Shown: positions 35,072-55,271 of the stretch, piece after piece | How positions within the stretch are numbered: the first letter of the stretch is position 1 | How the letters are laid out: each line of letters opens with the position of its first letter | DNA from: SAR202 cluster bacterium | GTDB taxonomy: Bacteria; Chloroflexota; Dehalococcoidia; Lucifugimonadales; VGZY01 | DNA length: 61,884 nt | Direction: 5' to 3' | NCBI GenBank assembly: GCA_016872355.1 | Contig: VGZY01000009.1 | Span: forward strand, 1 to 61,884 | Translations under genes and position numbers: made by a program | Notes under the pieces: model-generated | Told to the model about the DNA's origin: nothing | Seen by the model: the letters and a program-made list of their open reading frames with translations, nothing else | The model's database searches: none

Positions 35072-35899
35072 TCAGTGCTCCTTGTCCTTGCGGAAACCGG
35101 AGGCGCGGGCCTCGGCCTCCGTACAGAACCACGCGTCGCCGTCGGCAGCGGAGACAATTATCGTCTCGTAGAAGAACCCGCCGGGTACGTGAAAGATGCG
35201 CTGGCCCGTCCTGCCGTCCACGTTGCCTTTGATGACCGCGTCGGTTGTGCCTGAGTAGTCGCAGATGCCGCCGATTCCATCCATGCCCCCGAAGTTCGGC
35301 AGCGTGCCGCCTTCGAAAGGCTGGCCGGATACGGGCGTGGGCGTGTAGGGGATTGAGACAAAGTCGTGCGAGGCCTGCTGCCATAGGCCGCGCAACTGGT
35401 TACGGGCTTCCTCTTCAGCGGCCAGGAACTGCTGGAGATATTTGAAGCTCCCTTCATCAGATGTAACCCGGGCGTAGCCGCTGACGAGCATCTCCCGATT
35501 AACCATGTCCCCGTTTGCGTAAACGAAGCACAGCAGGTTACCTTCCTCGTCGAAGAGGTCAGGCGCCTCTTCCATCTCTACCCGCTGCCCCGCCACCGTG
35601 AACCGGTTGAAACTGAACGCCGCGTTATCGCCGGATTCCGACGCGATGCTGGGCGCTTCGATGCCATAATAGCGCACCCTTACAACTTTTCTGTCGTCGG
35701 TCTCAACGTCGATCACAGTGGAGTCCACAATATTCACGGCCGTGCCCGGTGCGCACCGGGCATCTCCGTTGGATACGCCCTGCTGAACAGGCGTTGGGGT
35801 AGGATTTGTGGGCGTCTTCTTCTTGCATCCAAGGGCGAACAGGAGAGAGAGGGTAAGGACGGCGGCTGCAACAGCCACGATGTATCGACGCGAGGGCAT
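35072..35899 (-). CDS. SNase-like lipoprotein with C-terminal sunset domain
   Basis: A 275-residue exported protein. The signal YIVAVAAAVLTLSLLFALGC ends in a lipobox Cys, followed by a Lys/Pro/Thr linker. Residues about 55-175 form a staphylococcal-nuclease-like (OB-fold) domain: VNIVDSTVIDVETDDRKVVRVRYYGIEAP and EGNLLCFVYANGDMVNREML. The C-terminal 60 residues (CDYSGTTDAVIKGNVDGRTG, then FHVPGGFFYE and WFCTEAEARASGFRK) resemble the sunset domain. I prefer ATG 35899; a GTG at 35911 overlaps the stop of the upstream Ig-like gene and is an alternative. Its role outside the cell may be nucleic-acid degradation. Confidence 0.78.
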   Translation of the reverse strand: MPSRRYIVAVAAAVLTLSLLFALGCKKKTPTNPTPTPVQQGVSNGDARCAPGTAVNIVDSTVIDVETDDRKVVRVRYYGIEAPSIASESGDNAAFSFNRFTVAGQRVEMEEAPDLFDEEGNLLCFVYANGDMVNREMLVSGYARVTSDEGSFKYLQQFLAAEEEARNQLRGLWQQASHDFVSIPYTPTPVSGQPFEGGTLPNFGGMDGIGGICDYSGTTDAVIKGNVDGRTGQRIFHVPGGFFYETIIVSAADGDAWFCTEAEARASGFRKDKEH

Positions 35900-35907
35900 G
35901 GGGGCTA

Positions 35908-36780
35908 TCACCTGGCAGGCTGGATCTGGACGATCTCGGCGATTATGGCGTTCTCATACTTGCCGGTCGATGCGGACGCCTTGAAGTTCCCGAGGCCGTT
36001 GATCGTGCCGATAGAGTTGTCTGCCAGACTCCAGCGGACTATCACGCTACTGACCTCGACGGAGTTCTCGTCCCATCCCTTCACGCTGAAGCGGACGGTC
36101 TTTCCGGCGGAGACGACCGCATTTAGCGGCTGGATGTCGACCGTGGTCAGCTTACCAGGGATCGTGATCGTCCCTGTCTTAGTCATCGTTATCGTCTCAC
36201 CGCCCGCTAGCTTCTGTGTGACGCTTACCCGGACGGCATCCGTGTAAATCCCGGCCATCGATCCGGCCTTGAAGGCGCCGTTGGAGCTGATTTCTCCGGC
36301 GCTGCCGTCGACCATTTCCCAGGCAATCACCAGGTTCGTTGCCGCCTTGCCGTTCGTTGCCGCGGCCTTCACACTAAACGTCGTCAGAGTCCCCGGCTGG
36401 AGCACTACGCCGGTCGGGCGGACTTCGACAGACTTCAGGCGGGAAATAGCCTTTGACTGCTGGACAACGACGGTCGCGTAGTCTCTGCAATGCACAAAGC
36501 CGAACTCGCCCGGGATGAATGCTTCGACGAGCACCGCGTCCGCATATACGCCGGGATCTTCGCCGCTGATGAAGGACCCCTTTTCATCTATGGTCCCCGC
36601 CTTCGGGTCCGCCATGCTCCAGCGGAGGGTTGTGCCCACAGCGACCTGGCCAAGGCCGTTCAACGCGTGCGCGGTGAAGTGGGAGCGCTCGTTCGGTGCG
36701 GTGAAATACCTTTGTGGCAGGGCATGCACTGTCAGAGTGTTCACAAATTGCGATGAATCGTTGACGGTAACGGATGTCAC
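35908..36780 (-). CDS. Ig-like (BIG2-type) surface protein, 3' fragment
   Basis: A 290-residue fragment with three repeated Ig-like modules, each shaped like VxPTGVVLxPGTxxTFSVKA, then WxMVDGSAGEISSNGAFKAG and YTDAVRVSVTQ; comparable units are seen at WSMADPKAGTIDEKGSFISG and WSLADNSIGTINGLGNFKAS. It starts from a GTG just after an in-frame TGA (36802-36804) that separates it from the upstream fragment; both are in the same frame, so they are one gene of about 553 codons. It should be a cell-surface repeat protein anchored by the upstream lipoprotein signal. Without read-through it lacks a signal peptide. Confidence 0.75.
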   Translation of the reverse strand: MTSVTVNDSSQFVNTLTVHALPQRYFTAPNERSHFTAHALNGLGQVAVGTTLRWSMADPKAGTIDEKGSFISGEDPGVYADAVLVEAFIPGEFGFVHCRDYATVVVQQSKAISRLKSVEVRPTGVVLQPGTLTTFSVKAAATNGKAATNLVIAWEMVDGSAGEISSNGAFKAGSMAGIYTDAVRVSVTQKLAGGETITMTKTGTITIPGKLTTVDIQPLNAVVSAGKTVRFSVKGWDENSVEVSSVIVRWSLADNSIGTINGLGNFKASASTGKYENAIIAEIVQIQPAR

Positions 36781-36801
36781 GGCCGTGATCTCGACACCGT
36801 T

Positions 36802-37569
36802 TCACACGGCGGACACCTCGACAGCGTTCTCGTAAAAGCCTGCCTCACCCTGGACTGTGAGGACGCCCAACTCGTCAATGCGGCCCAGCTTCTCGTCAAG
36901 GAGGCGCCAAGCGAATGGAACGTCCGGTATCAGGGAGTCGTCGACGTCGAATGCCACGGCGTGGAACCGGAATATCTGCTGGCGGAGCACGGTTGCCCCG
37001 TTCTGAACGAACTCGATGTGGGCCATCTCCAGCGGGCGGTCGTCGCCGACAACCACGACGTCTGCCGTTACCGATTTGGTGACAACACCATCCGGCGTGT
37101 TCTGCACCGCCGTTACAAGGACGCTACCCTGGTAGCTGCCCGGGCGGGACCGAGCGACAAAGGTGCCGTCCTCCGCGAATGAGCCCGCGCGGGCATCCAC
37201 CGCCGACCAGCTTAGCTGCACGTCCGGGAGCACCTGCCCGTTCCTGTCGTACGCCGTCGCCTTCAAGGTGGCGGAGTCTCCGGCATCGATAACGACTGGG
37301 TTGGGGTCGATGTTTACGGAGGTGAATACAGGTGCAACACGGACGATCGGCGCGGTGATCTCCACCGAGGCGCGGACCGTCAGCTTGGTCTCCGGGGTGG
37401 CGACCCTGGCGACGAAGGTCTTCTCATTCACCGGCGTGGCGGTGGCGGGTCGCGAGCACGCGGTCGCCACGAAGGCGAGGGCGAGGGACGCCACCGCGAG
37501 GGCCGAAAGAAGCGCCCTCGTTCGATTTTCTGACACTGCAAATGCTCTGGGCAAAAGACTACTCACCAC
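36802..37569 (-). CDS. Ig-like (BIG2-type) lipoprotein, 5' fragment
   Basis: A 255-residue protein with a signal anchor (ALLSALAVASLALAFVATAC, lipobox Cys) and two Ig-like modules (VFTSVNIDPNPVVIDAGDSA and WSAVDARAGSFAEDGTFVAR, then AWRLLDEKLGRIDELGVLTV). It ends AVEVSAV and a TGA at 36802-36804, followed in the same frame by NGVEITAVTSVTVND and then the next fragment. The TGA looks like a premature stop in a longer surface protein. The gene lies 20 nt downstream of the DUF4012 gene and is probably co-transcribed with it. Confidence 0.75.
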   Translation of the reverse strand: MVSSLLPRAFAVSENRTRALLSALAVASLALAFVATACSRPATATPVNEKTFVARVATPETKLTVRASVEITAPIVRVAPVFTSVNIDPNPVVIDAGDSATLKATAYDRNGQVLPDVQLSWSAVDARAGSFAEDGTFVARSRPGSYQGSVLVTAVQNTPDGVVTKSVTADVVVVGDDRPLEMAHIEFVQNGATVLRQQIFRFHAVAFDVDDSLIPDVPFAWRLLDEKLGRIDELGVLTVQGEAGFYENAVEVSAV

Positions 37570-37589: not shown

Positions 37590-40193
37590 TCAGTCCGAGG
37601 CGGATGCGGACTTCTTCGCGAACACCACCTCGAAAAGCATGTCCTGGTCCACGCGGACCTGGAACCTGGGGGTTGCTCCGCTCGCGGTAAGCGCGACGGA
37701 GCTGGAGGCTACGCGGTAGCCGCTCGGGAGCAGGAACTCGAGTGTAACGTCCCTGTACCTGCTGCCCGGCTGCTTCTGTAGAAGAAGCTGGTACTTGATG
37801 GTCTCGCCGTCCCGGAAGGTCAGCCTGGACGGGAGGTAATAGACGAGGTTAATCTCTTTCGTCTGTTGCGCGCCCACGGCGAACAGCCCGGACAGGACTG
37901 TTTTGTCGTAGGTTGAGCCTGTAGCTACGGTATCTTTGCCCGGGTCCCCCCTCCCGATCTCCGCCGCAACCGTATTCATGGACAAGGGCAGGGGGTACTG
38001 CTTAACAGCTTCGCCCCCCCGTGGCACGTAGGCCCTCCAGAAGTCCCAGTAGCAAGCGTTTTTGAGCTGGCTATAGTTCGTGTCGCGGTTCAGCCACTGC
38101 GGCTCGCAGCCTGGGGAGCCCGGACCACTATGATTATTGTAACGCAGTCGCAGATTAATTCTAGCCCCTTTTTCACGTTTCAGGTCCACCTGGTAGTGGA
38201 CTGTCCTCTCGATGTTCCTGTCCGCCTTGCTCCATCCGACGTTGGAGTCGACTACATAGAGGTAGTCCATATCGGCAGACTGGGTGACGCTGCCGTCCCA
38301 TCCCTTGAGCGCCATGAGGCCCTGAGCGGCCGGGTCGCTCATATAGACCAGCATCTCCCGCTTCTCCAGGCTGTCCCTCATAGCCGCGCCAAGGCGAAGC
38401 ATCGTCGGCAGAGACGCCCTTGAGTCAAGGCTTCTAATTGCCCCCTGGAGCACCACGTCCATGTAGGCGCGTCCGTGCAGGTCCGTGCCTTCTTCAAGCC
38501 GCGCGAACAGGTTTCTCTGGTTAATGTCGGGGCCGCCGTCAGGTGCGGGAATATCGCCGATGGCCTGGACCAGGCCTAACAGAGTCCACTGATTGATGGC
38601 GACCACCCCATCGACCCGTATGCCCTGGCCTATGACAAACATATCTGCGGCTGTCTGCGCCGTCACCGGGAAATGCGGCTCCCATGAGACGTCTCGCATC
38701 AGCCACACGGTTGCGTTAATGTGATCGCGGAGCCCCGCGGGCGCTGAAGGGTAGAGGACCAGCTTGTCCCAATCGTCTACAAACACGGCATCGTAATAAT
38801 CGATGGCCCTGAGGCCGCCGGATTCGAACGTGACCAGCCATACGGAAGAGACGAAGCCCCCGGTGGCCCTGAGCTCATCCGCAGTCTGGCCGAGCACCAG
38901 GTAACGCTTGACTGAGCCATCTGCGCCGATGATGGACTCGCCGATGGGTGCGATATCGTTGAGCAGGCCCATACCGTCTGCCAGGTTCGCAACCAGCGCC
39001 TGCAGGTCGGCCATGCCGGCAATCTCAGCGGCGCTGCCTGATGAACCGGCCTTTGCGAGTGTGCGCCGGGAGTCGTCAGGGAGGGCGACGGCGGACGCGA
39101 TATCCTGCTGCCTGGCTGAAACGGCGGTTATCACGGGTGCCAGTGTGCCGCCCGGGCCCAGCAGACCGCCTCCGGACTTTTTAACCTCCGCGAAGGCCGG
39201 CTCAAGCACGTCGACGCCTATGTAAGCGGCCTTTGCGGCCTTCTGAAGTGAGCTTTCCATGTCATTCAGGAGCCTGAGGCGCGCGAGCAGCTCAGTGCTC
39301 TGTCCGCTATCGGCCACGAGCCGTGTGAGCGACTCTGAGCGGACCAGCGCAAACTGGAGGTCGGTGTCGAGCTTCGCCATTGTGGCCTTCAGCGCGGCAA
39401 AGTCCATTGGCCCGGTTGCAGAGCCGTTGAACTGACCGACAAACGGCCTGGCGCTGGCGCCGATCTCCATCAGGTCTGCGAGGAGGCCGGAGGCCTGCTG
39501 TCCTATTACGGCGGCGCTCTGCATGCGGGCTTCAGACTCTGTCATGAAGTCCATGGCGCTGATGGCCGGAGTAATAGTGTATGAGGGGCGGACCTTGCTG
39601 ACACTGCGCGACGCCCTGGCGTGCTCATTCAGGGTTGTTGCGAACGTGGCCTCAAGCTGTTGCGCCTTGCTCGCAAGATCGTCGACCGCAGCGCTGCCGG
39701 TCGGAGCGAGCATTACCGTCTGAGCGTCCGACAAGGTGGACATCAACTCAGCGGAGCTCTCCAGGATATCCCCAGCAAACAGAACGTCCCGGTGGACGCG
39801 CCCGGCCTGGGTGGCCCATGCCTTGACCTCGCGGTCGGCCCATGGCAGCCACGACGCCGCTGAGGAGAGCCGCGAAGCCCATCCTGCGGAGCGCGCAAGC
39901 GCCCCGGTCTCTCCCTCTATGGTCGCAACTCTGGATTTCAGGTCATCGATGGCTTTCGTGTCTGCGTCGGTCACGCCTCGCGAGGAGATATCCCGAAGGT
40001 CCCTGATCCGGTCCGAAGCTCCGGCGGCCAGCGGGGCAAGGTCGATCGCGATTTTGGCGGAAACCACGGTAATCGCTAATACAGTAACAAATACCAGCGA
40101 ATGCCAGACACGGCGACCTCCTCGCTCGAGGAGGTGCGGCAGTGCGGCAGCTACGCCGCCGGACCCGGTCTTCTTCTGCTTCCGATCACCCAT
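37590..40193 (-). CDS. DUF4012-domain membrane protein
   Basis: An 867-residue protein with an N-terminal membrane helix (about residues 30-52, LVFVTVLAITVVSAKIAIDL), a long helical region and a DUF4012 domain (YLVLGQTADELRATGGFVSS; YYDAVFVDDWDKLVLYPSAP). The C-terminal part is beta-rich and adhesin-like. DUF4012 proteins are common in Chloroflexota and Actinobacteria near cell-surface polysaccharide genes; the function is not established. A TATAAT-like -10 box on the minus strand (40250-40245) lies upstream of ATG 40193. It heads the Ig-like/SNase gene group. Confidence 0.82.
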   Translation of the reverse strand: MGDRKQKKTGSGGVAAALPHLLERGGRRVWHSLVFVTVLAITVVSAKIAIDLAPLAAGASDRIRDLRDISSRGVTDADTKAIDDLKSRVATIEGETGALARSAGWASRLSSAASWLPWADREVKAWATQAGRVHRDVLFAGDILESSAELMSTLSDAQTVMLAPTGSAAVDDLASKAQQLEATFATTLNEHARASRSVSKVRPSYTITPAISAMDFMTESEARMQSAAVIGQQASGLLADLMEIGASARPFVGQFNGSATGPMDFAALKATMAKLDTDLQFALVRSESLTRLVADSGQSTELLARLRLLNDMESSLQKAAKAAYIGVDVLEPAFAEVKKSGGGLLGPGGTLAPVITAVSARQQDIASAVALPDDSRRTLAKAGSSGSAAEIAGMADLQALVANLADGMGLLNDIAPIGESIIGADGSVKRYLVLGQTADELRATGGFVSSVWLVTFESGGLRAIDYYDAVFVDDWDKLVLYPSAPAGLRDHINATVWLMRDVSWEPHFPVTAQTAADMFVIGQGIRVDGVVAINQWTLLGLVQAIGDIPAPDGGPDINQRNLFARLEEGTDLHGRAYMDVVLQGAIRSLDSRASLPTMLRLGAAMRDSLEKREMLVYMSDPAAQGLMALKGWDGSVTQSADMDYLYVVDSNVGWSKADRNIERTVHYQVDLKREKGARINLRLRYNNHSGPGSPGCEPQWLNRDTNYSQLKNACYWDFWRAYVPRGGEAVKQYPLPLSMNTVAAEIGRGDPGKDTVATGSTYDKTVLSGLFAVGAQQTKEINLVYYLPSRLTFRDGETIKYQLLLQKQPGSRYRDVTLEFLLPSGYRVASSSVALTASGATPRFQVRVDQDMLFEVVFAKKSASASD

Positions 40194-41207: not shown

Positions 41208-41828
41208 TTGTCGAATGGCTGGCGCTTGGTCAGGACCAAGCCTCTTTCGGAATATGTAGCTGCCTCTGCGCTCGAGCGCTCGGGGTACATGCCGTTCTTC
41301 CCACGTGTAATAACACCCCGGCCACGGGCAGGACACAATGACGCGCCGCTCTTCCCGGGATACCTTTTCGTGAGGAACGAGGATGAAGGTGCGTCGTTGC
41401 CGCCCGTAGGCCGAATCGCCGGGCTTATCGGGTGGGTGGAGTTCGACGGAGTCATACCCGTTGTGCCGGACAGCGTAATAGTGGAGATGGATGCCAGGCT
41501 CAAGGAAGTAAACGCAACGGGAGGGCAGTGGCGCCGCTACCAGCCTGGAGACAGGGTGCGGGTAGTCAACGGCCACGTGGACAGTCTGGCCGAGGTGCTG
41601 GAAGAGGCGAAGTCCCCACAGTCCCGGGTAAAGGTGCTCATGAGCTTCATGGGAGGCCTGGTCCACGCCAGGGTGCCCTGGTACAGCCTGGAGCCGGCAG
41701 GCGGGCAGGAATGGCTGGAAGCGCAGGCAGGGAGTGGGCGTCCACCCCGCCGAACGCGGGGCAAGGGCCGCTGGATCAAGGGCTTCGGGCCGCGCGGCTC
41801 CCAGGGCGCGTTGCCGGCGGAGAGTTAG
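41208..41828 (+). CDS. NusG/RfaH-like transcription elongation factor
   Basis: A 206-residue NusG paralogue: NGWRLVRTKPLSEYVAASAL (NGN domain) and GYMPFFPRVITPRPRAGHND, PLFPGYLFVRNE, with a KOW-like PGDRVRVVNGHVDSLAEVLEE and a basic C-terminal tail. Specialised NusG paralogues of this kind (RfaH, LoaP, UpxY) relieve termination in long surface-polysaccharide operons. TTG start with GGAGG 8 nt upstream. A strong intrinsic terminator lies 1.5 kb downstream inside the operon (43365-43416), a possible target. Confidence 0.82.
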   Translation: MSNGWRLVRTKPLSEYVAASALERSGYMPFFPRVITPRPRAGHNDAPLFPGYLFVRNEDEGASLPPVGRIAGLIGWVEFDGVIPVVPDSVIVEMDARLKEVNATGGQWRRYQPGDRVRVVNGHVDSLAEVLEEAKSPQSRVKVLMSFMGGLVHARVPWYSLEPAGGQEWLEAQAGSGRPPRRTRGKGRWIKGFGPRGSQGALPAES

Positions 41829-41968
41829 AATAACGAAAGACATCGCCCTCCGTAGAAGCTTCTGCTCCGGGGGCGACCCAGGGGCGCGCGCGGCTAACTC
41901 GGCTGACCGGCCGGGGGGACGTCGTGTGCCGTCTGATCGTACCGCAACGGAACGAAAGAGGAGAGAAG

Positions 41969-43336
41969 TTGAAAAACAAACAGGACGTTAGAATCGCGGT
42001 GTTGGGCCTTGGCCACGTTGGTCTGCCCACAGCTCTTGGCATGGCAGAGGTTGGCTGGACAGTCATCGGCGCCGACGAGTACCGGGACAAGGCGGAGAGG
42101 ATCCAGAGTGGGGACCCGACCTTTTACGAGCCGGGCCTCGAAGAACTCCTCAAGAAGCACCTGGACTCCGGGAGGTTTATCGTCCGCAAGGATGTGGCCT
42201 CGGCGGTGAAGGACTCCAACGTCATTTTCGTGTGCGTGGGCACGCCTCAGAAAGACGATGGCGCCGCAGACCTTTCCCATATGGAGAAGGTGGCCCGGAC
42301 TATCGCGCCGAATCTGAATGAGTACAAGGTGATTATCGAGAAGAGCACAACGCCCGTGCAGACTGCCGGGCGGCTGAAGCAAAGCATCATTCGTTATGCT
42401 GCCGCCCGTTCCAACGGCAACGGCGGCTCGGTGGACTTCGATGTGGCGGTCAACCCTGAGTTCCTGCGGGAGGGCACGGCCATTTACGACGTGTTCAACC
42501 CGGACAGGATTGTCATCGGGGTAGAGAGCGAGCCGGCGGCGAAGATGATGATGGACGTCTACCGACCCCTTGTTGAGCGGATCGGCAAGAGTATGGATTC
42601 CACGATCATAGTCACGGACATCAACGCCGCAGAGATTATCAAGCACGGTTCAAACGCGTTCCTGTCGATGAAGATTTCATTCGCGAATATGGTCGCCGAC
42701 CTTTGCGAGGCGACGGGAGCGAACATCCAGGACGTGACGCGCGGCATCGGGATGGACCCGCGCATCGGCCCCCGCTTCCTGAATGCGGGCATAGGGTACG
42801 GCGGCTATTGCTTCCCGAAGGACATTCGCGCATTCACATACGTCGCCTCGGAGCACGGAGTGGACTTCTCTCTGTTGCGCGAGGTTGAGAAGATCAACAA
42901 TGCGAGGGTGGGCAAGTTCGCTGCCAAGGTGCGGCAGGCGCTATGGGTGGTGAAGGGCAAGAACATCGCGGTGTGGGGCCTGGCGTTCAAGCCGGGAACG
43001 GACGATACGCGCGAGGCGCCGGCGCTGGCCGTGGTGCGGGCGCTGATCGAGGAAGGAGCGCACCTGCGCCTGCACGACCCGCAGGCCAACAAGGAGGCCA
43101 TGCGCGATATCCCCGCGAACCCGCCGTCAGTGGTGTATTGCGACTCGGCAGAGGATGCGGCGGCAGGCGCTGACGCCGTGGTGCTGCTTACGGAGTGGAA
43201 GGACTACCTGGGCGTGGACCTGGCGAAGCTAAGGCCCGCGATGGAAGTACCTCTCATCATCGATGGCCGCAACCTGTTCGACCCCGCGAAAGTGCGGGGC
43301 GCAGGGTTTGAATACTACAGCGTCGGCAGGCCGTAG
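41969..43336 (+). CDS. UDP-glucose/UDP-sugar 6-dehydrogenase
   Basis: A 455-residue nucleotide-sugar dehydrogenase. AVLGLGHVGLPTALGMAEVG is the NAD-binding site; VNPEFLREGTAIYDVFNPDR and the catalytic Cys281 in GIGYGGYCFPKD identify the family. The end region (WGLAFKPGTDDTREAPAL) binds the substrate. It oxidises UDP-glucose, or a related UDP-hexose, to the uronate for the exopolysaccharide. I chose TTG 41969 (AGAGGAGAGAAG upstream) rather than 41924, which has no ribosome-binding site. Confidence 0.85.
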   Translation: MKNKQDVRIAVLGLGHVGLPTALGMAEVGWTVIGADEYRDKAERIQSGDPTFYEPGLEELLKKHLDSGRFIVRKDVASAVKDSNVIFVCVGTPQKDDGAADLSHMEKVARTIAPNLNEYKVIIEKSTTPVQTAGRLKQSIIRYAAARSNGNGGSVDFDVAVNPEFLREGTAIYDVFNPDRIVIGVESEPAAKMMMDVYRPLVERIGKSMDSTIIVTDINAAEIIKHGSNAFLSMKISFANMVADLCEATGANIQDVTRGIGMDPRIGPRFLNAGIGYGGYCFPKDIRAFTYVASEHGVDFSLLREVEKINNARVGKFAAKVRQALWVVKGKNIAVWGLAFKPGTDDTREAPALAVVRALIEEGAHLRLHDPQANKEAMRDIPANPPSVVYCDSAEDAAAGADAVVLLTEWKDYLGVDLAKLRPAMEVPLIIDGRNLFDPAKVRGAGFEYYSVGRP

Positions 43337-43364: not shown

Positions 43365-43416
43365 GGGCTGCACGTTCTGGGACAATGAGTCCCGGGGCGT
43401 GCAGCCCTTATTTTGG
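43365..43416 (+). terminator. Strong intrinsic terminator before flippase gene
   Basis: GGGCTGCACG pairs with CGTGCAGCCC (43365-43407), with an inner GGGAC/GTCCC stem, followed by TTATTTT. The T-tract overlaps the reading-frame start of the flippase at 43413, so the downstream genes need antitermination or an internal promoter. Confidence 0.8.
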
Positions 43417-44981
43417 CCTGTTCTGAGAGCAAGAAGATCGAAGACCCGAAGCCGGCAGCAATAGAGCCTGGAGCCGCGGGGGACCTTTCCCGGCGCGTGC
43501 TGAGCGCGGGCACGTGGACGATGGCAATGCGGGTGGTCGTCTCGGTGGCCGGGACGGCCCGTGTGATGGTGCTGGCCCGGCTCCTGGCGCCGGAGGACTT
43601 CGGCCTGATCAGCATCGCTCTGCTGGTCGTCGGTTTCCTCGATTCGATGGCGCAGACGGGCTTCGCGACGGCGCTGGTGCAGCGTAAGGGGGATATCAGG
43701 CCGTACCTGGATACCGCATGGACGGTCCAGCTGGTGCGCGGTGTTGTTCTGGCCGGGGCAGTTGCGCTCGCGGCGCCCGTGGTGTCGCGGTTCTTCGACT
43801 CGCCGGGGGCAGAGTCCATTGTGCGGACGATGGCGCTGGTGGTGCTGTTCAAAGGCCTGACGAACAGTGCGGTGGTCTACTTCCAGCGGGACCTGGAGTT
43901 CCGCAAGCAATCGGTCCTTCAGATCGTCCATACAATGTCGGACGTCGCCGTGAGCGTCGGTTTTGGGATCGCGCTGAGGGACGTGCGCGCCCTGGTTTAC
44001 GGCGCGGTGGCGGCGAGCATCGCCCTGGTAGTCGTATCATTTATCGTACACCCATACCGTCCCAGGCCCAGGATCGACTTCGGGAAGGCGCGTGAGCTTT
44101 ATAGCTACGGCAAATGGGTCTTCGGCACGAACGTACTCAAGTACTTCATCCTCAACGGCGACAACGCGTTTGTTGGACGCATGCTGGGCACGGTGGCGCT
44201 GGGACATTACCAGATGGCTTACCGCATTTCGCAGATGCCGGCAACGGAGGTGGGGGACCTTATCTCACGCATAATGTTTCCGGCGTGGTCCAAGATGCAG
44301 GAAGATGTGGACCGCCTGCGCGCGGCATATCTGAGAACGGTGCAGGTGTCCACACTAGTGACGCTACCGCTCGCCGGTGGGGTGCTTGTGCTGGCGGACG
44401 CTTTCACGCGCGTCGTTTTGACGGAGAAATGGCTGGAGATAGTGCCGGCGCTGCAAGTTCTGGCCGTGCTGGGGGCGTTGAAGACGATCGGCGCGTTCGC
44501 TCCGCTATTTCAGGCGCTCGGGCGGCCGCGGTTTGTGACCATTGTCTCGGCGGTAAGGCTCGCGGCAATCGCCGCGCTCATTTATCCGCTGACGCAGACA
44601 ATGGGAATAGTAGGGACGGGCTGGGCAGTGCTGATCGGAACGGCGGTAACGATCCCATGGTCGCTCACGGAGGCGATGAAGGCTGTCCGCGGGTCGTTAA
44701 TGCAGTTCGTTGAGGCGGTGTGGATAGCTATCGCGGCAACGGGGGTCATGATGGCCATCCTCCTCGTGGCGCTTCAGCTTACTGCCTCTTCGAATATTGT
44801 GTGGGCAGGAGGGCTGATTGGGCTGGAGGGCGCGGCGGAATCGGTGGCGGGGCTTGTGTGGCTGGGCGGCCTTGCCACGGTCGGGTGCCTGGCTTACGGC
44901 AGCGCCTGCCTGGCGCTGGACACAATGACCGGGTCTAAAGCGTTAACGAGCCTGAAAAGGCTTGCGGGTATCTCGCATTAG
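43413..44981 (+). CDS. Oligosaccharide flippase (Wzx-like, MATE/MOP family)
   Basis: A 522-residue polysaccharide transporter with 12-14 membrane segments. The opening LSAGTWTMAMRVVVSVAGTARVMVLARLLAPEDFGLISIALLVVGF is characteristic of the Wzx/RfbX group, followed by GFATALVQRKGDIRPYLDTAW and YFQRDLEFRKQSVL. It moves lipid-linked repeat units across the membrane. The start is uncertain: TTG 43413 lies inside the terminator tail; GTG 43497 or ATG 43521 would be closer to family starts. Confidence 0.82.
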   Translation: MACSESKKIEDPKPAAIEPGAAGDLSRRVLSAGTWTMAMRVVVSVAGTARVMVLARLLAPEDFGLISIALLVVGFLDSMAQTGFATALVQRKGDIRPYLDTAWTVQLVRGVVLAGAVALAAPVVSRFFDSPGAESIVRTMALVVLFKGLTNSAVVYFQRDLEFRKQSVLQIVHTMSDVAVSVGFGIALRDVRALVYGAVAASIALVVVSFIVHPYRPRPRIDFGKARELYSYGKWVFGTNVLKYFILNGDNAFVGRMLGTVALGHYQMAYRISQMPATEVGDLISRIMFPAWSKMQEDVDRLRAAYLRTVQVSTLVTLPLAGGVLVLADAFTRVVLTEKWLEIVPALQVLAVLGALKTIGAFAPLFQALGRPRFVTIVSAVRLAAIAALIYPLTQTMGIVGTGWAVLIGTAVTIPWSLTEAMKAVRGSLMQFVEAVWIAIAATGVMMAILLVALQLTASSNIVWAGGLIGLEGAAESVAGLVWLGGLATVGCLAYGSACLALDTMTGSKALTSLKRLAGISH

Positions 44982-44987
44982 GACGCA

Positions 44988-46841
44988 ATGATTCTACGGC
45001 TGACAGACATACTACGCGAACAGGCCGGGCTAACTGCCCTGTTCTCCGACGCTGCGTTCCTCAGGGAGACGGCCCAGCGCAGGCTTCACGACGGCACCGA
45101 GTATGCGAGGCTGACCGACTCCTGGGAAGAGGTGCGCAGCCACTTTCTCACCATCGAGCTCGGCAGGCCACAGCTGCTGAGCCTCCAGCTGTCGAATGTG
45201 ACCGACGTGCGATACGAGGGCGCGATCGGTCTGGCCGCCATCTCGGAAGGGGTGCTCTACTGGTTGCCGAGGCCTCCGGTAGACCGCACCTGGGACGTGA
45301 ACGGCAGGATTGAGACGGAGGCAGACCTCAGCCTCAACTGGGAGCTTGTGGGCGCCTCCCTTGATATCTCCATTGCGCAGTGGGGCAGCAGGCGCCTCGA
45401 ATTGGCCGTCATCGAGGTCAGGGAGAGCGCTCCGCAGTATCTGGTGGACCTGTTCGAAGTGAGCAGGGTGGAAAAATTCCGCCTGAGCGAGTACCGGTAC
45501 TTCAGGCACGAAGGGATCTCCGATTTTTGGAGGAGCCTCGTAAAGGGGCAGATCTTCGAGACCCGTCACAAAGAAACGAATGGCGGAAAGCGCGTGCCGC
45601 AAGAGCAGGCTGCTCTCCTGCTCTACAATGTGGCGTCGCTCATGGAGGCTTCAGGAAAGCGCGTATACACTGCCCTCCGGCACCTCATAGCCTATTCTGT
45701 GATGATAAGGCTGGATGAGCGCGGCAGGTGGCGTCACGGCCACTGGACGCGGCTGATGGAGACGCACACGCGATTCCAGGCGGATGGCATTTCGCTGTTG
45801 ATAGACCATTTCGAGCGCTCCAGGAACCGCTCCTTCCTGCACGCAGCGGACAGGGCCAGCCAGTACCTGCTTTCGCTTTCGGACTGGCTAGATAGCGGAC
45901 GCTGGTTCCTGCACGACGAGCTGGAGGCGGAGCCGGAGCTTGTCAGCCTCGGGTATCATAACCTGGTGGAATCGAACGCCTTTGGGAAGTCAACGTCAAA
46001 CACTCTGTGCGTCAACACGCACGTGAACACGTTGCGAACACTGCTACTGATGGCAACGCATGACCAGACCGGCAAGTACCGCGAGCAGCACCGCCTCGGT
46101 CTCCAGGCCCTGAGGACCGTGCTTTCCGCACAGTCGCGACCAGATGCCTTCGAATCCGTGTTCGAGGTCTACGAGCTAGGCGGCAGGCTGGCCAGAGGCG
46201 GCAGGGTGGGACGCAAGGCATCATCGTGGCTAACGCGCGTGGCAGGGCGGTCGATGTTGAAGGCCAAGGCCCGCTACCCGCGCCTGGTGATGCCCAACGG
46301 CTTCATTGAGCGGGACCTGGTTGCATCCTCCCTGTCTCAGCGTTACAACCTCATCAACCTCCGGGACCTGATGGTCCACCGGCTGGTGTCGAAAGAGACC
46401 TGGGCGAACGGGGCAATCGATGCCGGCCTGGCGTACCTGGAGCGCAGGTGCATAAAGAGGCGGCAGGTGGACGAGCCGTGGATGTACGGCACCCTGCTGG
46501 AAGTCTTCGCGCTGGACGGCAAACGGACCGATGTTATTGTAAAGCTTGCCAACCAGGCCTACGAGAATGGCGGCTTCCCTGTTGACCTGATGCTCGCGGC
46601 ATGGACATTGAACCGGGAGAGGGTCTCCGCGCTGATCAGCTCCGTGGAGAACGGGATTCTCCCAATCCCCCTCCGCGGCGGAGAGGACATGCTCCTGGTC
46701 AATCCCACCGCGGAGCCGCTTGCGCCGTTCGAAGGCGCAGCGCCCATCCCCGCCGGCGAGTACGCCATCCTGGCCGTGAAGGAAGCGCCGTCACGCGCAT
46801 TTGGGCCGTTGCTGCCAAAGCTTCGAACGCAGGGTGGCTGA
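44988..46841 (+). CDS. Unrecognised 617-residue protein in EPS locus
   Basis: I do not recognise this protein. The N-terminal 200 residues are beta-rich (LSLQLSNVTDVRYEGAIGLA; LNWELVGASLDISIAQWGSR), followed by a long helical part with repeated helices (LHAADRASQYLLSLSDWLDS; NTLCVNTHVNTLRTLLLMATH; LQALRTVLSA), the layout of an alpha/alpha toroid such as those of sugar epimerases or lyases. No catalytic motif is clear. It has no signal peptide. It lies between flippase and methyltransferase, 6 nt after the flippase stop, so it is in the operon. A glycan-modifying role is inferred from position only. Confidence 0.6.
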   Translation: MILRLTDILREQAGLTALFSDAAFLRETAQRRLHDGTEYARLTDSWEEVRSHFLTIELGRPQLLSLQLSNVTDVRYEGAIGLAAISEGVLYWLPRPPVDRTWDVNGRIETEADLSLNWELVGASLDISIAQWGSRRLELAVIEVRESAPQYLVDLFEVSRVEKFRLSEYRYFRHEGISDFWRSLVKGQIFETRHKETNGGKRVPQEQAALLLYNVASLMEASGKRVYTALRHLIAYSVMIRLDERGRWRHGHWTRLMETHTRFQADGISLLIDHFERSRNRSFLHAADRASQYLLSLSDWLDSGRWFLHDELEAEPELVSLGYHNLVESNAFGKSTSNTLCVNTHVNTLRTLLLMATHDQTGKYREQHRLGLQALRTVLSAQSRPDAFESVFEVYELGGRLARGGRVGRKASSWLTRVAGRSMLKAKARYPRLVMPNGFIERDLVASSLSQRYNLINLRDLMVHRLVSKETWANGAIDAGLAYLERRCIKRRQVDEPWMYGTLLEVFALDGKRTDVIVKLANQAYENGGFPVDLMLAAWTLNRERVSALISSVENGILPIPLRGGEDMLLVNPTAEPLAPFEGAAPIPAGEYAILAVKEAPSRAFGPLLPKLRTQGG

Positions 46842-46861: not shown

Positions 46862-47644
46862 ATGGAAAAGACCCGCAAGGCTGCTCAAAAACTAGGTGGC
46901 AGAGGCGCATTCGACCGTGAGAGCGTCGAAGCCCTCTACAAGGACCCCACAGTCGTCGATTCCTACGACGAGGAGCGCTTCACGAGCATCAAGGGACGCA
47001 TCCGACACGCCCTGGACACCGATGCCGTTGTGGCCCTGCTTGCGCCCGTGAGGCCCCGCGCCGTCCTGGACATGGCCACCGGCACCGGGCGCTTCGCCGA
47101 TGCCGTATCCGGCCGCTTACGCTATGCTACGGTCGTGGCAGCGGACAATTCGCCGCTGATGCTTGCCAGGGCAAGAGGACGAACGAAGCGCCCCACCTAC
47201 GTGAACGCCAATGCGTTCTCCCTGCCCTTCGCCGATGGGTCATTCGACGCGGTCGTGACCTTCCTTTTTGTGCGTCACTTCAAGAAAGAGGACCGCAAGC
47301 TGCTGCACGCGGAAATTCGCAGGGTGCTGAGACCCGGGGGGACCCTGGTTATCGACGTTGCCAACCGCCGGTACCATGAGAAGGCGATCGCAGACCGCCA
47401 CGTGTTCGATGAAATCTACACGAGGGACGAGTTCGCAGCGGAGATGGCAGAGGCGGGGTTCAAAGTCGAAAGTCTCCTCGGTGTGCCCGTGAGCTGGCCC
47501 GGACTGAACCGGGCAATCTCAATCGCTCCCACGGTCCGCGGCAAAGTATTCGTGGCAAGGACGGCGAACCGCCTTCTCAGGTCACGGACCCGGCCGACAA
47601 ACAACTCTGCTATCTGGGTTGCAAGGTGCCGAAGAGACTCCTGA
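46862..47644 (+). CDS. Class I SAM-dependent methyltransferase
   Basis: A 260-residue methyltransferase: motif I VLDMATGTGRFADAVSGRL, motif II-like VVAADNSPLMLARARG, NANAFSLPFADGSFDAVVTFLFVRHF, and LRPGGTLVIDVANRRYH. It probably methylates a sugar of the exopolysaccharide. ATG 46862 has GGAG 6-7 nt upstream; the longer reading from 46601 overlaps the preceding gene. Its 3' end overlaps the next gene by 19 nt. Confidence 0.83.
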   Translation: MEKTRKAAQKLGGRGAFDRESVEALYKDPTVVDSYDEERFTSIKGRIRHALDTDAVVALLAPVRPRAVLDMATGTGRFADAVSGRLRYATVVAADNSPLMLARARGRTKRPTYVNANAFSLPFADGSFDAVVTFLFVRHFKKEDRKLLHAEIRRVLRPGGTLVIDVANRRYHEKAIADRHVFDEIYTRDEFAAEMAEAGFKVESLLGVPVSWPGLNRAISIAPTVRGKVFVARTANRLLRSRTRPTNNSAIWVARCRRDS

Positions 47645-48726
47645 TAATCGGCCGGAAGCTAGACCCGTATCCCCCGTTCGACGACGCAGTCAAGAACGCC
47701 ACACTTCTGCTTGCGGACACGCTCGCCCGGCAAGGCGTCAGCGTGCGGGTGCTCTCGTACTGGAAAGGTGCCCGCTACGCCGCCCGCAGGGCGCGCAGAA
47801 ACGGCGTGCCGTACCTCATCATCAACCGGACGCGCTGGCCCCGGATTCTAAACCGGGTCATCTCAAACAGCGCTGTGCCACGAATCCTCTGCCGCGCCTT
47901 TCGCGCGGATGCAGTCTATTTCCATGGCGCCTTCCTTGACCTGAAGGCGCGCAAAGCTGTGCATATCTATTCGCACCAGCACTTCGACGCGGACATGAAG
48001 GTTTCGAGAGACACCGCTGTTCTGGCTGAGAACGACTCGATCTACGAGCGCGCGAAGCTGGCATATCCCTCCAACGAGGTACACCTCGTCTATCCCGGCG
48101 TGGACCTCGCGAAGTTCAGGCCGCGCACGATGTCCCGGCCACGGAAGCAGGTCAAATTTGTCTTCGCGAGTTCGACAGTGCCGGAGCACGACACACGGGA
48201 GCGTGAGATTGCGGTGATGGAGAGCAGGGGAGTCTTCGATATCATAAAGCTCACGGGGGCGCTCTCCGCGAGGATGCCCGTCGAGACCACCATGCTCTGG
48301 CGCAAGGACACCGCGGTGGTAGACTCCTTCCTCGCTCCGGCAGGGCCTGTGAAGGCCGTGAGACGTTACGTCGAGGACATGAACGCCTTCCTCGACGACT
48401 TCGACTTCTGCTTTTGCCTTTTCAAGGACGACGGAAACGTCAAAGGCATACCGCAAAGCATGATCGAATGCATGGCCAAGGGGATTCCGATAGTGACATA
48501 CCGGGACGGCCCTCTAGGGGACCTGGTCAGGGAGCACGGATTCGGCGTGACGGTGTCGCCGGGCGGCGGCGAAGGCGACATCGATGCACTTGCCCGAGCG
48601 GCGACGGTCCCCGAGGAATACTCCAGGCTCTCGGCCAACGCCGTCGCCACCGCCCGCCGCCTGTTCGATATTGAGGCAACAGCGTCAAAGGTCGCGGACA
48701 TCCTGTTCCCGCGGGGCGCCGCGTGA
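47626..48726 (+). CDS. Glycosyltransferase (GT-B fold, GT4-like)
   Basis: A 366-residue protein with the GT-B shape: PKRLLIIGRKLDPYPPFDDA at the start, VYFHGAFLDLKARKAV, VHLVYPGVDLAKFRP and C-terminal IPQSMIECMAKGIPIVTYRDGP, the Glu-rich donor-binding region of GT4. The N-terminal half is divergent. It starts at GTG 47626 inside the methyltransferase gene. It transfers one sugar in the repeat unit; the sugar is unknown. Confidence 0.75.
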   Translation: MPKRLLIIGRKLDPYPPFDDAVKNATLLLADTLARQGVSVRVLSYWKGARYAARRARRNGVPYLIINRTRWPRILNRVISNSAVPRILCRAFRADAVYFHGAFLDLKARKAVHIYSHQHFDADMKVSRDTAVLAENDSIYERAKLAYPSNEVHLVYPGVDLAKFRPRTMSRPRKQVKFVFASSTVPEHDTREREIAVMESRGVFDIIKLTGALSARMPVETTMLWRKDTAVVDSFLAPAGPVKAVRRYVEDMNAFLDDFDFCFCLFKDDGNVKGIPQSMIECMAKGIPIVTYRDGPLGDLVREHGFGVTVSPGGGEGDIDALARAATVPEEYSRLSANAVATARRLFDIEATASKVADILFPRGAA

Positions 48727-49946
48727 AGATCGCGTTCGTCACGTCAACGTTCCCCAGCATCTCGCAGACCTTCATCCTGAGCCAGGTCACCGCGCTGCTC
48801 GACCTTGACCACGACGTGCGAATATTCGCATTCGGGGCGGAGAGCGGGATCGTTCACGAGGACGTGGCTGAGCGAGGGCTCCTGGACCGGACGGTCTACC
48901 TCGTACCTCCTCCGGGCGCCCTCCGGCGGTACGCCGCGGCTGCTGGCATGTTCCCTCGCATTGGGCCAGGTAATATCGGGCGGGTCGCCGGCTCTTTGAA
49001 TCCCGTTGCGAACGGTCCCGGCGTTGTGAACCTGAGGGCCTTGTATTCGTGGATGCCGCTGGCCGCAGGGCGACCATACGATATCGTGCACTGCCACTTC
49101 GGCGGCGTGGGCAGGCGGGTTGTGCCCGCGGTGCCGGCGGTCCGGCCTGGAGCGTTCGTAACAACCTTCTACGGTCACGACGTCTATCGCGAGACCCAGG
49201 CCGCCCAAGGGCTGTACCACCGGCTAGCAGTGCAAGGAGATGCGTTCATTGCACTGTCCGGTCCCATGAGGCAGGACCTCATAGCCCTGGGGTTGCCTGA
49301 GGCAAAGACCTTCATCCATCCGCTCGGCATATACTCCGACCGGTTCCGGCCGCGAAAGCGCGTCTCCGTTCCGGGGCCCGTAGAGGTAATCACGATCGCG
49401 CGGCTTGTGGAAAAGAAGGGGATAGAGTTCGCATTGAGGGCGGTCGCGGAATATTCGTCCCGGCCAGGCGCACTTCCGCTGTCCTACAAAATTGTGGGCG
49501 AAGGACCGTTGCGCACTCCACTGGAGGCGACGGCCGCGGAACTGGGCCTTGGGCAGTGCGTCCGATTCCTCGGTGCAAAATCGCAGCGCCAGGTAGAGGA
49601 TCTCATAGGGGAGGCCGACGTGTTCCTGTTGCCCAGCGTCACCGCGGCGGACGGCGACAAAGAGGGCACACCGACCACGTTGATCGAGGCGCAGGCAATG
49701 GGCATACCTGTGCTTTCAACCATTCACAGCGGCATCCCCGAAATCGTTGAAGGTGGCGTCACGGGCTTCCTGGCGCCGGAGCGCGACGTGCCGGCGCTCT
49801 CCTCCAGGTTAGGGCAGCTTGTCGAGGACGCCGAATTGCGCTCCAGCATGGGAATGGCAGGGCGCGCACGCGTTCTGGAGCGGTACGACGCCCGGAAGCT
49901 TGCCGACAGGCAGGTGGACATATATCGGCGGCTGATAAAGAGATGA
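48723..49946 (+). CDS. Glycosyltransferase family 4
   Basis: A 407-residue GT4 protein: KIAFVTSTFPSISQTFILSQ (colanic-acid type WcaL-like opening), DIVHCHFGGVGRRV, TTFYGHDVYRE, ITIARLVEKKGIEFALRAVAEY, YKIVGEGPLRTPLEATAAEL, and DKEGTPTTLIEAQAMGIPVL with the EX7E donor site. It overlaps the previous gene by 4 nt. One of nine glycosyltransferases in the operon. Confidence 0.87.
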   Translation: MKIAFVTSTFPSISQTFILSQVTALLDLDHDVRIFAFGAESGIVHEDVAERGLLDRTVYLVPPPGALRRYAAAAGMFPRIGPGNIGRVAGSLNPVANGPGVVNLRALYSWMPLAAGRPYDIVHCHFGGVGRRVVPAVPAVRPGAFVTTFYGHDVYRETQAAQGLYHRLAVQGDAFIALSGPMRQDLIALGLPEAKTFIHPLGIYSDRFRPRKRVSVPGPVEVITIARLVEKKGIEFALRAVAEYSSRPGALPLSYKIVGEGPLRTPLEATAAELGLGQCVRFLGAKSQRQVEDLIGEADVFLLPSVTAADGDKEGTPTTLIEAQAMGIPVLSTIHSGIPEIVEGGVTGFLAPERDVPALSSRLGQLVEDAELRSSMGMAGRARVLERYDARKLADRQVDIYRRLIKR

Positions 49947-53537: not shown

Positions 53538-55271
53538 ATGATAATTCTGGGTTTCAATGCGTTTCATGGGGACGCCTCAGCCGCTATCTTCCGAGACGGC
53601 GAGCTGGTGGCGGCGGTGGAGGAGGAGCGGTTCACCCGGGTCAAGCACGAGGCGGGATTCCCGTCCCGTGCGATCAGGTACTGCCTCGAGACTGCCGGCG
53701 TGCGGCCCGAGGAGATCGACCACGTGGCGATTCCACGGAAGCGTTCGGCGCACCTGGCCCGGAAGGCCCTGTGGGCCGCCCGGATGCCTTCGCTGGCGCT
53801 GGACAGGGCGAAGGTTTGGAAGAAGTTCGGCACTGTGCAGGACCTCCTCGCAGCCGCTGTTGATGTGCCGGCGGCACGGCTCAAGGCGCAGTACCACTAC
53901 GTTGAGCACCACGTCGCGCACGCCGCAAGCTCGTTTTACGCTTCGCCGTTCGAAAGCGCTTCGGTCCTGTCTCTGGACGGGCTTGGCGACTTCGCCAGCA
54001 TGCTCTGGGGAACGGGGAAGGGGCGAGACATGTCGGCGGAGGGCTTCACGCTATTCCCCAACTCTCTGGGCATTTTCTACACGGCCATAACGCAGTACCT
54101 GGGACTCTGGAGCTACGGCGACGAGTACAAGGTCATGGGCCTTGCGGCGTACGGCGAGCCTAAGTACAAGGAGATGTTCGACAAGCTGGTCCGCGCGCAC
54201 AATGACCTGACCTTCAGCCTTGACCTGAGGTACTTCGCCCACCACAAGGGCGGGCCGGAGATGTCCTGGCCCGAAGGCGAGCCCAAGATCGGGAAGCTCT
54301 TTTCAGCGGAGCTTGAAAAGGCTCTCGGACCCGCGCGCGTCCCTCGCGGCCCCGTGGAGAAGCATCACCAGGACGTGGCGGCCACCCTCCAGTGGCGGAC
54401 GGAAGAGGTCCTGTTCGTCCTGATGAACCAGCTTTTCAAGCGCACCGGCAACGCGAACCTCTGCTACGCGGGCGGCGTCGCGTTCAACTGCTCGGCCAAC
54501 GGCAAGATATTCGACCGCACGCCGTTCAGGGACATTTACATACAGCCCGCCGCGGGAGACGCAGGGCTGGCGATAGGCGCGTCCCTGTACGTCTACCACC
54601 AGGTGCTCGGCCAGCCGCGCAAGGTGCGAATGACCCACTCTTACTGGGGACCGGAATACGGCGTCGACCGGATGGAGGCGGCCCTGAAGGCGCAGACCGT
54701 CAGCTATAAGAGGCTCGCCATGCCCAGCCTGATCGACCGCACCGCCCAGCACATCGAGGCGGGGAAGGTCGTGGGCTGGTACCAGGGCCGAAGCGAGTGG
54801 GGTCCCAGGGCGCTCGGTGACCGCAGTATCGTCGCCGACCCACGCCGACCGGACATGCAGGATATCCTCAACCGTCGCATCAAGATGCGCGAGACCTTCC
54901 GGCCGTTCGCGCCGTCCGTCCTGGCGACGCGCACAGGCGAGTGGTTCGAAAAGGACTTTCCATCGCCGTTCATGCTGATGACCTACCCGGTGAGGGAAGA
55001 GAAGCGCGCGCAGATTCCGGCGCCGACGCACGTGGACGGCACGGGCAGGCTGCAGACGGTAACGAAGGACGCCAACCCGCTGTACTGGGACCTTATCAGC
55101 GCGTTCGACCGCCTGACAGGAGTTCCGATGGTGCTGAACACCTCATTCAACGAAAGCGAGCCCATAGTGAACACGCCGGAAGAGGCGGTGGCGTGCTTCC
55201 TGCGGACAAAGATGGACGTGCTGGCGATGGGCCCGTTCATGGTGGAGCGCAACGGCGCGGAGGAGCCGTGA
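53538..55271 (+). CDS. Carbamoyltransferase (NodU/CmcH family)
   Basis: A 577-residue carbamoyltransferase. The N-terminal Kae1-like domain begins ILGFNAFHGDASAAIFRDGE, with VAAVEEERFTRVKHEAGFPS, HVAHAASSFYASPFESA (metal-binding His residues) and LSLDGLGDFASMLWG. The C-terminal YrdC-like part has WYQGRSEWGPRALGDRSIVA and RETFRPFAPSVLA. It carbamoylates a sugar hydroxyl using carbamoyl phosphate and ATP. No Shine-Dalgarno is evident, and a 9-mer repeat precedes the ATG. The stop overlaps the next gene by 4 nt (GTGA). Confidence 0.88.
   Translation: MIILGFNAFHGDASAAIFRDGELVAAVEEERFTRVKHEAGFPSRAIRYCLETAGVRPEEIDHVAIPRKRSAHLARKALWAARMPSLALDRAKVWKKFGTVQDLLAAAVDVPAARLKAQYHYVEHHVAHAASSFYASPFESASVLSLDGLGDFASMLWGTGKGRDMSAEGFTLFPNSLGIFYTAITQYLGLWSYGDEYKVMGLAAYGEPKYKEMFDKLVRAHNDLTFSLDLRYFAHHKGGPEMSWPEGEPKIGKLFSAELEKALGPARVPRGPVEKHHQDVAATLQWRTEEVLFVLMNQLFKRTGNANLCYAGGVAFNCSANGKIFDRTPFRDIYIQPAAGDAGLAIGASLYVYHQVLGQPRKVRMTHSYWGPEYGVDRMEAALKAQTVSYKRLAMPSLIDRTAQHIEAGKVVGWYQGRSEWGPRALGDRSIVADPRRPDMQDILNRRIKMRETFRPFAPSVLATRTGEWFEKDFPSPFMLMTYPVREEKRAQIPAPTHVDGTGRLQTVTKDANPLYWDLISAFDRLTGVPMVLNTSFNESEPIVNTPEEAVACFLRTKMDVLAMGPFMVERNGAEEP

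Follow-up and report, generated by a model that had tools for sequence, protein, structure and literature searches.

What does the 617-residue protein encoded at positions 44988-46841 (plus strand) of a SAR202 cluster bacterium contig do within the glycan gene cluster that surrounds it? The stretch analyzed, hereafter the window, comprises 61,884 nucleotides, and the open frame in question is unbroken over its 617 codons, running from an ATG at 44988 to a stop codon that ends at 46841, with many stops in the complementary frame on the opposite strand. Eight full-length or near full-length relatives (559-670 amino acids) align with the encoded protein, here termed P0001, across most of its length at 23-33% identity, with 50 columns invariant among the nine sequences; the frame is therefore more than a chance occurrence, and the gene is real, full length and conserved. 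Searched as a single sequence, P0001 matches neither a Pfam nor an NCBIfam family at E ≤ 10, nor any PDB sequence, so that the original prediction, which held that no known family fits, is a fair description of the sequence taken by itself. As expected there, too, the protein lacks a predicted signal peptide: 19-residue Kyte-Doolittle windows reach a mean of at most 0.79 over residues 1-60 and 0.91 over the whole protein, leaving it without a hydrophobic, signal or transmembrane segment by this measure. None of the nine family members carries a hydrophobic N-terminal segment of either kind, which fits an action in the cytoplasm, as for the archaeal epimerase Agl32.

The family is rare, with a patchy spread over unrelated bacteria and a single archaeon. 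Relatives from three sources, Bacterium BMS3Bbin08, an ANME-1 archaeon and Candidatus Scalindua, came to light when genome contigs were scanned, and a profile search of the phylum sample around BMS3Bbin08 contributed five more, the eight together representing bacteria from two further phylum groups and the single ANME-1 archaeon. Counting the centre genome of each phylum sample, the family occurs in 1 of 400 genomes in its own phylum sample and in 1 of 343, 6 of 346 and 1 of 345 in three others. The viral contigs scanned contain no relative, and a plasmid search with the single P0001 sequence returned nothing. A recent horizontal origin was considered and, as judged by composition, rejected, the gene matching its neighbours in GC (0.619) and GC3 (0.789); in contrast to this compositional uniformity, the source genome is the only one of the 400 in its phylum sample to possess the gene.

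The immediate surroundings in the window are those of a glycan cluster. At its head lies an RfaH/NusG-like gene (41208-41828), a NusG paralogue scoring 62 bits against the RfaH model (below cut-off), which may serve as the antiterminator of the cluster. Two genes upstream of P0001 is a nucleotide-sugar dehydrogenase (41924-43336, plus strand) that exceeds the TIGR03026 cut-off and, by sequence, appears closest to the UDP-glucose 6-dehydrogenases, its best-scoring equivalogs being TuaD and AglM, both below their own cut-offs. Between this gene and the next, at 43365-43407, a 19-pair GC-rich stem followed by TTATTTT forms a possible terminator or regulatory element, because of which the dehydrogenase may perhaps constitute a separate transcription unit; over the whole terminator scan, sites were no more numerous than in shuffles. 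There follows a TuaB/Wzx-like polysaccharide flippase of the MOP type (43413-44981, plus strand; PF13440, 273 bits, with the NCBIfam MOP flippase and TuaB models below cut-off). A gap of 6 bp separates the flippase stop from the P0001 gene, and 20 bp lie between the end of the P0001 gene and the likely ATG of a SAM-dependent methyltransferase (46862-47644, plus strand; PF08241), a start chosen for its position after the P0001 gene and its upstream GGAG. From this spacing we infer that the three genes are cotranscribed, as originally predicted. Next come a GT4-like glycosyltransferase (47626-48726, plus strand; GT4 Pfam matches weak and below cut-off) and a WcaL-like GT4 glycosyltransferase (48723-49946, plus strand; TIGR04005, 184 bits, below cut-off), and farther downstream many GT4 and GT2 glycosyltransferases, a carbamoyltransferase, and GDP-mannose dehydratase/GDP-fucose synthase genes. 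The carbamoyltransferase, of the NodU type and situated amid glycosyltransferases (53538-55271), suggests a carbamoylated sugar. Elsewhere in the window, three adjoining minus-strand frames at 35072-37569, Ig-like repeats being present in the two that were read, adjoin a gene for an 867-residue DUF4012 protein (37590-40193).

Which of these neighbours travel with the family? All relatives found are encoded among glycosyltransferases and exporters. In six of their loci, representing four independent lineages (BMS3Bbin08, Scalindua, G1039 and the G987/G1049/G1117 group), the directly downstream gene is a homologue of the WcaL-like GT4 of the window, with full coverage and 37-41% identity, while other GT4s in the relatives' loci match it with far lower scores; in most of these loci a GT2 lies immediately upstream of the family gene. 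The window differs in having two genes between P0001 and this glycosyltransferase, the WcaL-like GT4 being nonetheless the conserved partner of the family. Co-occurrence with Wzx and DUF4012 genes, which had been put forward as a check on the role of the protein, is not conserved: a search of the relatives' loci found no DUF4012 homologue and a flippase weakly in one; the export gene is a flippase in the window and the ANME-1 locus, and export is instead of the ABC type in two lineages (Scalindua and G987). The UDP-glucose dehydrogenase was likewise rejected as a conserved partner, a close homologue standing beside the enzyme gene in the window only. Sulfotransferase genes lie near the family gene in two lineages, with four in Scalindua and two, one of them matching PF03567, in G1039. 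In the Scalindua locus (L004, 4674-15774), where the four surround the relative together with ABC export genes and Wzy_C, the product is possibly a sulfated glycosaminoglycan-like glycan. A separate peculiarity is locus L031 (5642-13811), in which four radical SAM/SPASM genes surround the most divergent relative, P0009, and which is alone in this among the loci examined. With every relative placed among glycosyltransferases and exporters, the earlier proposal that P0001 modifies glycans is the functional idea with the most support.

Structure prediction bears out the anticipated architecture of a beta-rich N-terminus and a long helical, toroid-like part. Two AlphaFold models, of P0001 and of its relative P0002, each built from a four-sequence alignment and with mean pLDDT of 71-72, both place strands at residues 2-144 and helices at 148-554. 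The N-terminal part is a predicted beta-sandwich (residues 1-144, 44988-45419, plus strand; pLDDT mostly 80-93), likewise present in P0002, and the helical part a predicted toroid (residues 148-554, 45429-46649, plus strand), with residues 159-596 matching the toroids of GLCE, AGE and GH76 in structure; P0001 is thus, by prediction, a protein of the (alpha/alpha) toroid superfamily. Confidence falls below pLDDT 50 in the loops at 308-340 and 427-450, which surround the invariant motifs, and in the active-site loops of P0002 as well. Fold comparison yields several close neighbours rather than one. The structural aligner ranks human and zebrafish GLCE chains 1-5 for P0001 and 2-6 for P0002, with Z of 13.2-13.5 and rmsd of 3.3-4.2 Å over 231-240 residues, these alignments spanning the helical part only (residues 165-491 of the P0001 model), and GLCE is tied in Z with GH76 and AGE/cellobiose 2-epimerases. 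GH76 BT2949 is tied or first, and cellobiose 2-epimerases and related AGE enzymes, at Z of about 12-13.2, align over 283-314 residues, more than GLCE. Foldseek returns toroid enzymes with low TM-scores for both models, led by the PL27 lyase BACCELL_00875 (E 2.8e-5 and 1.1e-5). The models therefore predict a helical toroid as in GLCE, a shape also common to other families, and the fold alone does not decide, because a Z near 13 could be common for a mostly helical model.

Two relatives, P0002 and P0003, pass the cut-off of the C5-epimerase family PF06662 (C5-epim_C; 24.3 and 27.5 bits against 23.3), while P0001 itself has no match to PF06662 in the Pfam search and a PF06662 search of the source genome found nothing. 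The cut-off is unspecific for C5-epimerases, since DUF255-like thioredoxin-toroid proteins (loci L019, L024 and L025) pass it too; these proteins also surpass the family against the C5-epimerase profile, and we no longer take the relatives' matches to prove that they belong to PF06662. The HMM search suggested at the outset thus leaves the single sequence without a family, with two of its relatives above an unspecific threshold. In an ANME-1 phylum-sample genome, a 402-residue toroid-like protein (L018, 1108-2313; PF06662, 27.7 bits), whose gene adjoins a UDP-GlcNAc 2-epimerase-like gene, is possibly another single-domain epimerase-like protein. We compared the helical part of the P0001 family by hhalign with a panel comprising AGE, DUF255, GH94 and a C5-epimerase profile built from five PF06662 proteins and stretches of human and zebrafish GLCE. 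The C5-epimerase profile scored highest (46.1, probability 77%, E 2e-5), followed by AGE (32.2, probability 14.5% over 42 columns) and DUF255 (30.8), whereas 100 column shuffles scored at most 20.2. The AGE match is above the shuffles and below the C5-epimerase match, and similarity to GH94-type phosphorylases was not found, the score of 14.3 falling inside the shuffle range. PDB sequences searched with the family profile and the relatives gave no match or chance matches only. At the level of profiles, then, the statement that no known family fits gives way, and D-glucuronyl C5-epimerase is nearest among the families tested. DUF255 is itself nearer to the C5-epimerases than the P0001 family is (score 57 against 46), so that the relation is one at the superfamily level.

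Does the family retain the residues that such an enzyme would need? The columns invariant in all nine members include W248-x-HG-x-W253, E258-x-H260-x-R262, W306-x-L-H309-D310-x-x-E313 and G333-K334, as well as N343-T-H345, P431-R432, R442, Y453, N457 and D460, with H250, H260, H309 and H345 as the invariant histidines. The catalytic residues of GLCE are E499, Y500, N510, Y560 and Y578 (PMC13308652); a description of the mechanism assigns the role of base to Tyr578 and has Glu499 donate from the opposite face (PMC12834895). Two of the five have putative equivalents in P0001, judging from profile alignment and models. N343, in the invariant NTH motif N343-T344-H345 (46014-46022, plus strand), aligns with Asn510 at an hhalign confidence digit of 9, and the invariant Y453 (46344-46346, plus strand) falls in the Tyr578 column of the extended profile alignment. 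The points at which the ten listed structural alignments to GLCE end (488/613, 490/615 and 491/616 for P0001, 492/613 for P0002) all imply the latter register too, placing Y453, and Y457 of P0002, on human residue 578, assuming that the last 35 residues are gapless. Glu499 and Tyr500 appear to be replaced. The invariant W-x-LHDxxE motif (H309-D310...E313; 45912-45926, plus strand; nine of nine members) is the candidate replacement, at a register confidence of 0.1-0.3: counting from the shared Trp puts H309 at Glu499, E313 lies nearby in the profile alignment at low confidence, and the candidate position for Tyr500, which among the PF06662 members used is V or Y, holds D310 rather than a Tyr. 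Tyr560 is probably replaced by an acidic residue, the candidate position being E441 (E or D in all members) in a region not confidently aligned. P0001 thus fails as a full member of the GLCE family, and we do not file it there. A Tyr/His pair is nevertheless chemically reasonable, because DSepi1 uses His and Tyr residues (PMC13308652).

We propose, at a probability of roughly 45%, that P0001 is a cytosolic C5-epimerase-like enzyme whose substrate is a uronic acid of a lipid-linked glycan that has yet to be exported. Glucuronate from UDP-GlcA would enter the lipid-linked glycan, the nearby GT4 would add the next sugar, and P0001 would then bind the uronic acid already within that lipid-linked (or otherwise cytoplasmic) glycan and invert its C5. 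Y453 would abstract the C5 proton from one face, H309 or E313 of the W-x-LHDxxE motif would give a proton back from the opposite face, and N343 together with conserved cationic residues would hold the carboxylate. The D-glucuronic acid would thereby become L-iduronic acid, and the flippase would export the glycan; the substrate could also be a different uronic acid. Sulfotransferases are the usual companions of iduronate in glycosaminoglycans, and their genes near the family gene in two lineages count for this reading, as does the presence, two genes upstream, of the gene closest to UDP-glucose 6-dehydrogenases. Counted against it are the failure of P0001 to match a family, the unspecific PF06662 cut-off, the apparent replacement of Glu499 and Tyr500 and the probable one of Tyr560, the fold tie with GH76 and AGE, the first place of PL27 in Foldseek, the pLDDT below 50 in the active-site loops, and the restriction to the window of a dehydrogenase homologue beside the enzyme. 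A more far-reaching and less probable proposal is that the family comprises previously undescribed cytoplasmic uronyl C5-epimerases with a Tyr and a His (or displaced Glu) as the catalytic pair in place of the Tyr/Glu of GLCE. Together with the WcaL-like GT4, these enzymes would provide ANME archaea and environmental bacteria unrelated to one another with glycosaminoglycan-like surface glycans that contain iduronate and, in some lineages, are sulfated.

The same fold and the same invariant residues can be read in other ways. Abstraction of the C5 proton is also the first step of beta-elimination, and a uronate polysaccharide lyase that trims or proof-reads the glycan would agree with the leading Foldseek match of both models, BACCELL_00875 being an L-rhamnose-glucuronate lyase. 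Its TM-scores of about 0.2 and rmsd above 20 Å over the whole chain indicate a match that reflects common architecture, C5-epimerases come nearest in the profile comparison (with C5-epimerases, AGE, DUF255 and GH94 as its panel), and a cytoplasmic lyase in a biosynthetic operon devoid of catabolic genes would be unusual; we regard such a lyase as quite improbable. Scarcely better placed is an AGE-like 2-epimerase or aldose-ketose isomerase working on a free sugar or sugar end through the four invariant histidines. The tie in Z with cellobiose 2-epimerases speaks for it, yet the profile similarity is weaker than to C5-epimerases, and AGE enzymes consist of one domain of about 400 residues, with no N-terminal beta-sandwich; we hold this to be rather improbable.

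A beta-sandwich, a toroid and a small C-terminal beta element make up the layout of several GH63/GH65/GH94/GH76-like enzymes, and P0001 could accordingly be a toroid hydrolase or phosphorylase of this kind, trimming the glycan or a lipid-linked intermediate. Such enzymes are frequent in the Foldseek lists, BT2949 is among the best in Z, and D310, E313 and E258 would provide invariant acids; the GH94 profile, the one from this group in the panel, nonetheless scores 14 against a shuffle mean of 15, a known catalytic acid motif was not recognised in P0001, and we hold this to be unlikely. Need the protein be an enzyme at all? A non-catalytic toroid that binds or scaffolds the glycan and aids the adjacent GT4 would explain both the conserved neighbourhood with the WcaL-like GT4 and the absence of a complete known catalytic set. 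This too seems unlikely, as the dense set of invariant polar residues kept across bacteria and an archaeon (H250, E258, H260, R262, H309, D310, E313, K334, N343, H345, R442 and Y453) looks more like an active site.

Iduronic acid is rare in bacteria. The C5-epimerases identified so far outside eukaryotes are one bacterial and one archaeal enzyme (PMC13308652). If the C5-epimerase reading is true, P0001 would represent a second, cytoplasmic type of C5-epimerase with altered active-site residues, present in several phyla and near sulfotransferases in two lineages. Its gene would then mark uncultured microbes whose glycans contain iduronate, and chemoenzymatic work would gain a new enzyme.

How, then, does P0001 compare with the known systems? 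With the heparan sulfate GLCE (PF06662; PDB 6HZZ, 6I01 and 4PXQ) it shares, by prediction, the helical toroid (Z about 13.5), the Asn510 and Tyr578 equivalents and a beta-rich N-terminal part, which is likened by type only to the beta-hairpin and beta-sandwich domains of GLCE; unlike GLCE, it is cytoplasmic, appears not to conserve Glu499 and Tyr500, probably has an acidic residue for Tyr560, and lacks a counterpart to the conserved SAMAQG motif. For the C5-epimerase of the bacterium Bermanella marisrubri (Raedts 2013), a GLCE-like mechanism is described on the basis of alignment (PMC13308652), whereas some of the GLCE residues are absent from the P0001 family. AGE and cellobiose 2-epimerases share the toroid fold, with a tied Z, but show the weaker profile match and have no N-terminal beta-domain, and PL27 BACCELL_00875, first in Foldseek for both models, is a degradative enzyme with a global TM-score of about 0.2. 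The proposed place of action is that of Agl32 of Halobacterium salinarum, which epimerises a lipid-linked glycan before export and needs flanking sugars; Agl32 has one predicted domain, which is helical, with no beta-sandwich, and reportedly shares none of the GLCE residues (PMC13308652). Likened by description, the two share a helical domain, and the iduronate of the Agl32 system, set in a sulfated glycan, resembles the proposed product of the P0001 family; P0001 differs in its predicted beta-sandwich and in its putative GLCE-like residues. As an enzyme of a glycan cluster P0001 is ordinary; what makes it unusual is that its family is rare, widely scattered and cytoplasmic, and that the C5-epimerase-like site is altered in part.
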